In this document: positions 27,474 through 31,877 of the stretch, in pieces
Layout: each line of letters opens with the position of its first letter
How positions within the stretch are numbered: position 1 is the stretch's first letter
IMG/VR virus record: IMGVR_UViG_3300044577_000044
Span: 1 to 33,019 of that record
Reading direction: 5' to 3' (one strand)
Source: a virus
Length of the DNA stretch: 33,019 nucleotides
Position numbers and translations under genes: made by a program
The notes under the pieces: model-generated
Told to the model about the DNA's origin: nothing
Seen by the model: the letters and a program-made list of their open reading frames with translations, nothing else
Databases searched by the model: none

Positions 27474-28278
27474 CGGTTTTCCGTGTGCTCTGGGGTTTCA
27501 TGCGCCGATCGCGGGCTTCCGCGATGGCATCGGTGAAATAGGCCAGCGAGCGCGGCGGGTCGTGGCCGTTGCGCCGCGCCATCAGCCGCTTGACCGTGGG
27601 CTCGATGTCGAGCTCCCAATCGGCGCCCTCGGCCAGCCAGCTCGCGGCGATCCCCCAATCGCCGAACCAGCCGGGGTCGCCGGCCACGCCCATGATATCG
27701 GCGACACGCCGCCCGACCGCAACGGCCCGCTCGGCTGAGGTCGCGCGCTTCAAAAAATCGGGAATGTCGAGAAGATCGGGGTCGGCAGCAGCAGCCGGCT
27801 GGGTCGCGGCAACAGACTCAATGCTGCTGCTGTTAACCTCTCTCTTTCTTTCTTTCTTATCTAGACTCTGGACGCGTGCGTGCGCGCGCGAGGGGTTTGC
27901 TTGCGTTAAGTCATTGTTTTTGTGGTGAACAGCATCGTTTTCAGATACCTTTCGTCCACCTTTCGCGCCACTTTCAGCGCGTTTTCGGCGCGTTTTCGCG
28001 ACGTTTTCGAGCTCGAAACTCGCACGAGAATTGCTCAGCGCGCCGTCGCGCGCGGCCAATTTACCCTCGTCGATGAGCTGTTGGCGGAGCGCTTTCCATT
28101 TACGGATCGACACCCCGCAGACGCCGGAAAGATAGCGCGCATCGTCCGGTATCGGCCCGCCCCGGTCGTAGATCAGGTCCAGACACAGGCTGTAGGCGCC
28201 CTTCTCCTCGAGCGACAACATCATTGTCGAGGTGATGAAGTCGGCGCCGTAGCGTTTGTACCAAGGGCGCGCGCTCAT
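27304..28278 (-). CDS. DUF1376-family phage replication-region protein
   Basis: A 324-residue protein. The first 90 residues (WYKRYGADFITSTMMLSLEEKGAYSLCLDLIYDRGGPIPDD, then ARYLSGVCGVSIRKWKALRQQLIDEGKL) are the DUF1376 winged-helix-like domain, known from YdaU-type and primosome-like phage proteins. A Lys/Arg/Ser-rich linker follows, then a second conserved helical block (about 190-265, FGDWGIAASWLAEGADWELDIEPTVKRLMARRNGHDPPRSLAYFTDAIAEA). The tail is Gly/Pro/Glu-rich and overlaps the next gene. It likely takes part in phage DNA replication initiation. Start overlaps the sigma-like stop by ATGA. Confidence 0.82.
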   Translation of the reverse strand: MSARPWYKRYGADFITSTMMLSLEEKGAYSLCLDLIYDRGGPIPDDARYLSGVCGVSIRKWKALRQQLIDEGKLAARDGALSNSRASFELENVAKTRRKRAESGAKGGRKVSENDAVHHKNNDLTQANPSRAHARVQSLDKKERKREVNSSSIESVAATQPAAAADPDLLDIPDFLKRATSAERAVAVGRRVADIMGVAGDPGWFGDWGIAASWLAEGADWELDIEPTVKRLMARRNGHDPPRSLAYFTDAIAEARDRRMKPQSTRKTDERTHSPANAGANLYDGFAEAARVLADEPTQPAEPGEAEGGGAGGGGRLEGPPETG

Positions 28279-29006
28279 GGCGTGTACCAGCCGTGGCTTC
28301 GCGCCTCGGCCGCCTCCGCCTCCCGTTCCCGCACACGTTCAATATCGGACATCTCGACGAGAAACGGGGCAACTTCAGCAAGGCGCCTTATGGTTCCGGG
28401 ACGACGAAGTTTCCGTAGGGCTTTCTGCTCAATCTGGCGCGCACGCTCTCTGTTCACGCCGCCGATCATGAGGGAAACCTCTTCAAAAGTATTTTCGGCA
28501 TCAGTGAGTCCTTTGCCAATGTTATTTTTCTTACTCTGACCCACTTCGCCACTGAGACCAAATCGAGCCTTGATAACGATCGCCTCGCGTTCTGTGAGGA
28601 CTTCGTCAAGGATGGCCTCAAGGGTTTCGGCTGCCTCAACTTCCTGAAACCTTTGATCTGGAAGCAAATGATCGTCGGGAACCGATAGGGCGCTGGTGAG
28701 GCGCTCCATTTCGTCCAGGCTGACCTCAAATGAGGCGGTGTTCTTGAGCAAAGGATCCCAGACGTGTTGATGTGGAAATAAATCGTCACATTTACAGCCG
28801 AGTTTTTTTGCGACCCTCCGGACGGGCTTGCGCCACTCGCCCCGTTTCGTCATTGGGGCCTTCTTGAGGGAAGCGAGCCCATAAAGTGTGGCAGAATTCA
28901 TGCCAATAGCAGTCGCCAGATGGTTGATATTGTCAAATCCGGCGGCCTCCATGCGTCGTAGAAACGGCGCGTTTCTGACCTTAATCTCGATTCTGTAATC
29001 TTTCAT
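28275..29006 (-). CDS. Sigma-70-like phage transcription factor
   Basis: A 243-residue protein. The N-terminal part (residues 9-80: RNAPFLRRMEAAGFDNINHLATAIGMNSATLYGLAS...PHQHVWDP) holds a HTH of the type I know from phage sigma-like proteins. The region about 118-210 resembles sigma-70 region 4 (AILDEVLTEREAIVIKARFGLSG...TFEEVSLMIGGVNRERARQIEQKALRKLRRP), with the -35-recognising HTH in ERARQIEQKALRKLR. No region 2 for -10 binding is visible. It may direct host polymerase to late genes, or act as an adaptor. Its DNA between about 28430 and 28980 is less GC-rich than its neighbours. Confidence 0.82.
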   Translation of the reverse strand: MKDYRIEIKVRNAPFLRRMEAAGFDNINHLATAIGMNSATLYGLASLKKAPMTKRGEWRKPVRRVAKKLGCKCDDLFPHQHVWDPLLKNTASFEVSLDEMERLTSALSVPDDHLLPDQRFQEVEAAETLEAILDEVLTEREAIVIKARFGLSGEVGQSKKNNIGKGLTDAENTFEEVSLMIGGVNRERARQIEQKALRKLRRPGTIRRLAEVAPFLVEMSDIERVREREAEAAEARSHGWYTP

Positions 29007-29028: not shown

Positions 29029-29904
29029 TCATTGGGCCCCCTCCGCCTGCATGATGGAGCGGCCGATCATTTCAACGACTTGGGGCACGACGGCGTTGCC
29101 GAGGGCTCTAAGTCGGTCCACCCGGTTGGGAACCCCATGAGCCACTCGACCCACGTCGGGTTCAGGGAGCCACCGAGCCGGTGCCTCTGTGCCGCGCTCG
29201 CTTCGCCGCGGCCCTTCGCCATGCCCAGGTCCGGCGTCGGCCACAGCGACCTGTTCACCGCCCGCCCGAGTTCGTTCCCGCTCGGGCCGTTGCTCTTGCC
29301 ATCTGGGCTGAAGCCGTGCGCGGTGGGCCACATTTTCTTCGCCACATGAACCCGCAAGCTGTTTCTCGTCGCCGTGTGGTCCGTGGTCTTTTCCCAATCC
29401 GTCACCGTGCCGTGCTTCGCTTCTTGTGCCAACGGCGTGGGCCACAATCCATAGCCGCTCTCGTCTGTGCGGGGCATCGACGGCACAAGCCGGAATAGCA
29501 AACGTCCGGCAGGCGTAGCCACATCCCTCCAGGTCAGAAAGCACTTGGTCGAGGCCCAAATGGATGAGCCCAGCAACATTTTCTCCAAGTACCCAAGTGG
29601 GCCGGAGTTCGTCCACGAGCCGATACATTTCTGGCCAGAGGTGGCGGTCATCGTCCGCACCCGCTCGCTTCCCGGCGACACTAAAGGGCTGGCAAGGGAA
29701 GCCGCCGGAAATAAGCTGGACTGGTCCAACGGCATCGCCCCTCAGTTCCCGGATGTCGCCGTGACAGGGCACGTCGGGCCAGTGATGGGCGAGTACCTTG
29801 CGGCAATAGTCGTCGGTCTCGCAGAACGCCACGGTGGACATGCCGGCCCGCTCAAGCCCAAGGCTGAAACCGCCGATCCCGGAAAATAGGTCCAGCACAT
29901 TCAC
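29029..29904 (-). CDS. C5-cytosine DNA methyltransferase
   Basis: A 291-residue enzyme with all main motifs: I NVLDLFSGIGGFS (residues 2-14), IV GGFPCQPFS with nucleophile Cys71, VI ENV (108-110), VIII APHRRERLW (144-152) and IX/X RALGNAVVP (266-274). The start is a GTG after GGTGAGGG, giving the canonical MNVLDLFSG. The region about 155-255 (target-recognition side) is Arg/Glu/His-rich and shares its DNA with an alternative frame that also looks family-like (see findings). It methylates phage DNA, probably to escape host restriction; no cognate nuclease gene is nearby. Confidence 0.92.
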   Translation of the reverse strand: MNVLDLFSGIGGFSLGLERAGMSTVAFCETDDYCRKVLAHHWPDVPCHGDIRELRGDAVGPVQLISGGFPCQPFSVAGKRAGADDDRHLWPEMYRLVDELRPTWVLGENVAGLIHLGLDQVLSDLEGCGYACRTFAIPACAVDAPHRRERLWIVAHAVGTRSEARHGDGLGKDHGPHGDEKQLAGSCGEENVAHRARLQPRWQEQRPERERTRAGGEQVAVADAGPGHGEGPRRSERGTEAPARWLPEPDVGRVAHGVPNRVDRLRALGNAVVPQVVEMIGRSIMQAEGAQ

Positions 29905-31274: not shown

Positions 31275-31877
31275 TCACGCCTCCTCCGGCTTGCGCAGCC
31301 AGCGCAGTTGAGACGGGCCCATCCAATCCTTATCCCACACGAACCAGGCGTAGGCGGTCTTGGACCCGGCGTGCTTTGCGCCCTCTTGGTTCCAATCGTA
31401 AGGCAGGTCATGCCCCGGCGCGATCGGCACCCGGTTGGCGAACACCAGCACGCGGGCCAGCGGGGTTTCCTCGAACAGGTCGGCGCGGCGTTTGCTTTCA
31501 AGGAACGGCAGGCGCAGGAGAAAGGCGACCTTGTGGCGCGCCACGTTTAGGGCGACGCGAACGAAATTCTCCGCGTCCGCGTAGGGCGGGTTCGAGATGA
31601 TGTTGTCGGTCGCGGTGAAGTCCTGGTTGATCTCGAGGAAGTTCGCGACGTGGATGTGGAATTTCTCCGGCGCGTCGCGGTCGGCCAAGTCCGCGCCGAA
31701 CGTGTTGAAACCACGCTCGCGCGACGCGCCGACGATCGTGCCCACCCCGGCCGCCGGATCGAACACCGAGCCGACGAAGCGCTCGGCCGCGAACAGGGCT
31801 TCCACCGCCCACGCCGGCTCGACGTAGAAGTCGCCAGCGACCCGCTCGTAGCCCGTCGTATGCTCGTGCAGGCTCAC
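31275..31877 (-). CDS. N6-adenine-type SAM-dependent DNA methyltransferase
   Basis: A 200-residue protein. YERVAGDFYVEPAWAVEAL (residues 10-28) precedes motif I FDPAAGVGTI (39-48) and the catalytic motif IV NPPY (96-99). The arrangement is that of phage gamma/alpha-type amino-methyltransferases. The last third has a Trp-rich segment (KTAYAWFVWDKDWMGPSQLRWL). Start is a GTG that overlaps the previous frame by GTGA. Together with the cytosine enzyme it gives the phage two modification activities. Target sequence unknown. Confidence 0.86.
   Translation of the reverse strand: MSLHEHTTGYERVAGDFYVEPAWAVEALFAAERFVGSVFDPAAGVGTIVGASRERGFNTFGADLADRDAPEKFHIHVANFLEINQDFTATDNIISNPPYADAENFVRVALNVARHKVAFLLRLPFLESKRRADLFEETPLARVLVFANRVPIAPGHDLPYDWNQEGAKHAGSKTAYAWFVWDKDWMGPSQLRWLRKPEEA

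Follow-up and report, generated by a model that had tools for sequence, protein, structure and literature searches.

A phage cytosine-C5 methyltransferase gene with a nested gene under selection, very probably encoding two parts of one enzyme

Can one strand of phage DNA hold two conserved proteins in two frames over the same bases, and what does the second protein do? Where two constrained proteins share a long stretch of the same strand, the known examples are usually isolated ones. The window, which is the whole stretch of 33,019 nucleotides analysed here, is a fragment of tailed-phage DNA whose genes include terminase, portal, primosomal (DUF1376), sigma-region-4 and RuvC-like ones and another methyltransferase-like gene. 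It carries a methyltransferase gene (alpha) in which a second open reading frame (beta) is nested (Table 1). The earlier note on this DNA suggested that the segment holds conserved signal in two frames, and this was borne out by the match of beta to the family phrog_1008 and by purifying selection on beta. Our results indicate that the locus very probably encodes one cytosine-C5 methyltransferase made as two overlapping-frame proteins, with beta giving recognition and motif IX in trans.

Reading frames of the locus

Alpha matched PF00145 with an E value of 1.5e-43 over residues 1-162 and phrog_363 with an E value of 1e-86, and its match to M.HhaI covered residues 3-155. The frame ends normally, as the earlier note had read it, with the C-terminal reading ...VGRVAHGVPNRVDRLRALGNAVVPQVVEMIGRSIMQAEGAQ* and the stop codon at 29029-29031. 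The GTG at 29904 is its probable start, as the listed ORF of 521 aa from 30594 extends back across an upstream gene. Alpha has motifs I-VIII and X of the cytosine-C5 methyltransferases of PF00145; the residues of the catalytic motifs I-VIII (PCQ, ENV, RxR) were nearly invariant among 59 relatives, and motif X was aligned. Between motifs VIII and X of the alpha chain, neither a recognition region nor motif IX was found by alignment, in the structural model or from the near-neutral evolution of this part, and in hhalign the C-terminal part of alpha aligned to the canonical enzymes at motif X only. The AlphaFold2 model of alpha was confident for most of residues 1-160 and for about 270-290 and disordered at about 161-260, with pLDDT values of about 94 for residues 280-289, 85 for residues 270-279 and below 50 across the bases of the WPTP repeats of beta. 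With Foldseek, the model matched about 162 columns of M.HaeIII and M.HhaI. Alpha may also have a part of its own at the motif IX region, since its VGRVAxGVPxRVDR block, which overlies motif IX, is conserved too.

Table 1. Features of the locus and of two neighbouring genes, in positions of the window
Feature	Position	Strand	Basis or remark
Alpha, Dcm-type cytosine-C5 DNA methyltransferase, 291 aa	29029..29904	(-)	Motifs I-VIII and X; no motif IX in alpha frame
Alpha motif IV (GFPCQPFS)	29680..29703	(-)	Translation; P-C-Q invariant; overlapped by N-terminal half of beta
Alpha motif VIII (APHRRERLWIVAHA)	29434..29475	(-)	Final part of alpha alignable to canonical enzymes ahead of motif X
Alpha motif X (RALGNAVVPQVVEMIGRSI)	29053..29109	(-)	Mostly past the end of beta; aligned to canonical and single-chain motif X
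Beta, nested ORF, 222 aa, ATG start	29067..29735	(-)	+1 frame relative to alpha; phrog_1008, open frame, purifying selection
Beta residues 88-188 (WPTP repeats), probable target-recognition segment	29172..29474	(-)	hhalign, regional selection, alpha model
Beta motif IX-like block (LNPTWVEWLMGFPTGWTDL), residues 191-209	29109..29165	(-)	Most conserved block of the family; motif IX position
GAGGGG, Shine-Dalgarno-like site directly 5' of beta ATG	29738..29743	(-)	Sequence
Second methyltransferase-like gene, different family	31275-31877	(-)	phrog_799, E 6.9e-48
Protein with sigma-70 region 4 domain, directly downstream of the methyltransferase	28275-29006	(-)	

In the beta frame, the sequences that had been quoted from 29534 onward are all present: TWRDVATPAGRLLFRLVPSMPR, then GYGLWPTP, MWPT, SLWPTP, LNPTWVEWLMGFP and GWTDL. 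Its beginning had been placed opposite PCQPFS, and the actual start lies about 13 codons earlier. Beta matched phrog_1008 over most of its length (residues 7-212, E 1.5e-29). In Pfam, the beta of the window had no family match and 110 members of its family gave single chance-level matches only; the beta profile matched no solved structure up to an E value of 10, and beta modelled alone was of low confidence. In the window, GAGG stands four bases ahead of the beta ATG. Of 205 loci, 174 carry a start codon together with GGAG, GAGG or AGGA at the conserved beginning of beta, where the other start-like codons of the same genes would lead one to expect 46.7 (sd 5.7), and the upstream stop in the beta frame immediately precedes the beta start (median 0 codons). 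Downstream of the locus, the product of the gene with the sigma-70 region 4 domain is possibly a phage transcription regulator.

Open-frame, shuffling and substitution analyses

The loci found with beta as query were the best 80 of at least 597 confirmed matches on viral contigs and the best 80 of 238 in bacterial genomes. Six annotated phage records bring the set to 166 loci, and in every one the two frames are open and stand to each other as they do in the window (+1). Since these loci had been selected on beta, the search was repeated with alpha alone, and the beta frame was open in 80 of 80 loci; the two sets partly overlap because some contigs recur. When the synonymous codons of alpha were permuted in 155 loci, the beta frame gained 3.7 stops on average while none was observed, down to loci of 36% GC, and the third frame of the same loci held 12 stops on average. 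Canonical single-chain C5 enzymes taken as controls had no beta ORF. Against a beta profile built without the window, the +1 frame of the window scored 269 bits, and 500 synonymous shuffles of its gene scored 78.5 +/- 14.8 bits with a maximum of 128. The start of this frame had looked random in the earlier note, but the N-terminal half of beta is constrained and reached 167 bits, whereas the shuffles went no higher than 104 there. The share forced by alpha was about 62 of the 167 bits in the N-terminal half and only 7 of 84 in the C-terminal half.

A codon alignment of the 205 loci, with rates taken from pairs 80-97% identical, showed how the two frames change. The difference rates of alpha at codon positions 1, 2 and 3 were 0.046, 0.015 and 0.232 upstream of beta, 0.116, 0.054 and 0.088 inside the overlap, and 0.072, 0.059 and 0.242 past the beta stop. 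Position 3 of alpha is position 2 of beta, and position 1 of alpha is position 3 of beta; this shift of codon phase is therefore the signature expected of dual coding. Among alpha-synonymous changes, the constraint ratio of beta was 0.26 in the overlap versus 0.79 and 0.93 outside it, from a count of 3105 overlap substitutions in 47 independent pairs. Over motifs IV-VIII the ratio was 0.08 for alpha and 0.23 for beta; over VIII-IX alpha was near neutral (0.76, interval 0.59-1.04) whereas beta was constrained (0.34, interval 0.22-0.49), and in the motif IX block both frames had low ratios. These ratios are rough figures, since doubly synonymous sites are few and the counting was simple, and in them the order of constraint of the two frames reverses where a bipartite enzyme predicts it. 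Beta is thus under purifying selection.

A shadow ORF, whose openness and apparent conservation would come merely from the conservation of alpha and a codon use with few stops, was rejected by the synonymous shuffling, the codon-phase rates and the alpha-selected control set. Part of the similarity is indeed forced by alpha, as the average of the shuffles shows (78 bits, mostly in the N-terminal half), and GC-rich DNA often has long ORFs by chance. However, the absence of stops where 3.7 per locus were expected, a real score well over all 500 shuffles, a constraint on the third positions of alpha that is confined to the overlap and the excess of beta starts with a Shine-Dalgarno site make this explanation extremely unlikely. 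Beta is not a shadow ORF. The earlier note would have been given up had the second frame only shadow homologues or lacked purifying selection, and both proved otherwise. From the conserved beta family, the purifying selection and the start and Shine-Dalgarno site of its own, both frames are most likely expressed.

Nature of the second protein

Homology to single-chain and split enzymes points to the function of beta. In hhalign, beta residues 88-207 aligned with the VIII-X segment of single-chain mycobacteriophage methyltransferases at 97% probability (E 9.5e-11). At what is apparently the same genomic position, judged from shared flanks, some mycobacteriophages carry the overlapping pair (L340, L346) and others a single chain (L351/L385, Cornucopia gp70). 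The frame of this chain runs on from motif VIII through LLPTP repeats and PRLAAAFPEWMMGWPAGWVT to motif X, IIGNGVVPQQ. The single-chain relatives thus have the TP-repeat...MMGWP segment in the methyltransferase frame, between VIII and X, which agrees with the former suggestion that families had switched frames. In the split genes Noelle gp77/gp76 and NiebruSaylor gp6/gp5, the second gene consists of the beta-like segment and motif X. The LNPTWVEWLMGFPTGWTDL block sits at the position of canonical motif IX (for example PRRLTPKECQKLQGFPDWFE before YKQFGNSV). When beta was compared with the canonical enzymes directly, the alignment fell on motif IX at an hhalign probability of 2-4%, which is not significant alone; the block is called motif IX-like from its position and the single-chain intermediates. 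Within the single-chain enzymes, no counterpart of the N-terminal half of beta was found.

Some mycobacteriophage loci depart from these arrangements. In L348, the alpha ORF is broken by a frame change after motif VI and carries on in a different frame, and the beta-like ORF too is cut; the copy is either damaged or affected by a sequencing error. L395 and L397 each have two methyltransferase ORFs of the alpha family close together, one of which is a complete single chain.

Because the C-terminal half of beta is homologous to the VIII-X segment, and the alpha reading of VIII-IX is predicted to be disordered and is near neutral, beta most likely supplies recognition and motif IX, and is the probable target-recognition and motif IX subunit. 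In the proposed enzyme, alpha would contain the AdoMet-binding and catalytic motifs I-VIII plus motif X, and beta would be translated in the +1 frame from its own ribosome-binding site within the alpha gene. Beta would bring the target-recognition segment and motif IX, which alpha lacks, in trans; alpha and beta would then assemble into a working methyltransferase, for which beta would be needed. The role may be that of an orphan phage methyltransferase modifying phage DNA, for example against host restriction; an orphan gene would agree with the neighbours scanned, where no restriction gene could be recognised. This reading is based on the conservation of both frames and the selection on them, the start signal, the homology of the C-terminal half of beta and the absence of motif IX from alpha.

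Beta might also be a real protein with a separate job, anti-restriction or regulatory for example, rather than an enzyme subunit. Its constrained N-terminal half without a counterpart in single-chain enzymes would suit such a job, as would a beta-like ORF standing without an open methyltransferase frame (L175:2750-3148), though this is perhaps a remnant. What makes a separate job improbable is that alpha has neither motif IX nor a folded recognition region in the alignment and the model, that nearly all copies of beta were seen inside an alpha gene, that the C-terminal half of beta is homologous to a segment of the enzyme itself, and that bipartite enzymes have a precedent. Programmed frameshifting, in which ribosomes on alpha would shift to the beta frame and make a chain of I-VIII, recognition segment and IX as the alternative or main product, draws on the existence of single-chain enzymes and on the beta frame continuing the logical order of the enzyme after motif VIII. 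We consider it hardly likely, since beta has its own start and Shine-Dalgarno site, the part of beta upstream of motif VIII is constrained (0.23) although a shift would not need it, and a chain made by one shift would be without motif X, as the beta frame ends ahead of it. One enzyme made of two proteins is the reading that we retain.

A Paenibacillus bovis plasmid (NZ_CP021170.1) carries an intact overlapping pair and, a short way downstream of it, the ORF at L175:2750-3148 (YWPTPMAS...INPAWIECMMGFPEGWTSLD), a further beta-like ORF that stands alone. This ORF is either a remnant or a free beta, and a search for its relatives found none.

Origin, spread and comparison with known systems

The catalytic domain was placed in a rapidly built tree in which branches are long and 13 canonical enzymes form the outgroup (support 99). 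The single-chain and most of the split enzymes, mainly from actinophages, were separate from the overlapping ones, and a tree holding the 50 overlapping rows together was not rejected (p-AU 0.615), which is no proof of one origin. In the tree classes, six further loci were counted as overlapping; five of them have a motif X-like stretch (YGNAIN or LGNLNPP) at the C-terminus of alpha, and the sixth, L322, is only doubtfully of this class. The simplest view is that the overlapping form is the derived one, given that canonical enzymes consist of one chain. By the route that we envisage, the VIII-IX segment of a single-chain ancestor would have gone out of frame with both readings staying open, and the N-terminal half of beta and the VIII-IX reading of alpha would be later overprinted sequence. 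There is about an even chance that the pair is a mosaic of frames, in which each protein is half ancestral and half overprinted with functional new halves, which arose once and spread across phages of many phyla, and that for many phage 'Dcm' proteins the recognition domain has been looked for in the wrong frame. The constraint on the N-terminal half of beta over IV-VIII (0.23) and on the VGRVAxGVP block of alpha over IX is the basis for calling the new halves functional.

The nested gene was found in hundreds of loci, with at least 597 viral and 238 bacterial-genome confirmed matches, and the titles of the genome contigs included Bacillota, Pseudomonadota, Bacteroidota, Chloroflexota and Actinomycetota. 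In most of the records opened, alpha alone was listed. The nested ORF is marked 'internal gene' in the Paenibacillus larvae phages (Diva gp50, Lily gp63), and in one Xanthomonas phage record both ORFs are labelled methyltransferase. Our literature search found no paper on a nested gene family of this kind in phages, which does not prove that none exists. Five loci on the chromosome of a Roseovarius MAG (OX638333.1, L090-L094) had identical match statistics and identical beta ORFs and are apparently five near-identical copies of a region. In a prophage of E. coli Ec1117 (NZ_CP126602.1, L422), a broken methyltransferase copy is annotated as two partial pseudogenes and adjoins a frameshifted MT-A70 methyltransferase gene.

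Several hundred loci share this one overlap, and the single-chain and split relatives reveal the nature of the second protein. If the proposed enzyme is real, half of the enzyme is missing from the annotation of many orphan phage cytosine methyltransferases, recoding of alpha for expression would destroy beta, and recognition specificity should be sought in beta. The loci also form an unusually large data set on the origin of overlapping genes and the division of function between frames.

Several known systems resemble parts of this arrangement. M.HhaI and M.HaeIII have the large catalytic domain that alpha matches, but their recognition region and motif IX are in the same chain. Cornucopia gp70 (QBP31548.1) has the same catalytic part and the same TP-repeat and motif IX segment, all in one frame and one chain. 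The family phrog_1008, labelled DNA methyltransferase, with Diva gp50 and Lily gp63, is the protein family of beta in the nested position, annotated without a mechanism.

Among two-polypeptide enzymes, M.EcoHK31I was reportedly described by Lee, Kam and Shaw in 1995 with the small-subunit gene nested in a different frame of the large-subunit gene and with an activity that requires both polypeptides; the beta gene of the window is likewise nested in the alpha gene in another frame. According to a published account of this bipartite Escherichia coli enzyme (YGGCCR), the large subunit has motifs I-VIII and X, the small polypeptide has motif IX, and the predicted target-recognition domain (TRD) is placed in the large subunit (PMC3404938). 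By that description the pair of the window has the same split, I-VIII and X on the large subunit and IX on the small polypeptide, with motif IX assigned by position and single-chain intermediates. It differs in that homology and selection place the recognition segment in beta, and in that M.EcoHK31I belongs to a restriction-modification system whereas the genes of the window type are orphan phage or prophage genes. A search of plasmids and E. coli genomes for M.EcoHK31I or a restriction-gene neighbourhood found neither, and the regions opened held orphan prophage copies only. M.AquI (CYCGRG) is described in the same account as one enzyme of two polypeptides, the second with motif IX (PMC3404938). 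Its small subunit also has motif X, an arrangement found in some mycobacteriophage relatives such as Noelle gp77/gp76, whereas in the window beta ends before motif X, which is in alpha. The bipartite overlapping design thus has a precedent in M.EcoHK31I; what is new is its spread through phages, the evidence for selection and, as we infer, the place of the recognition region in beta.
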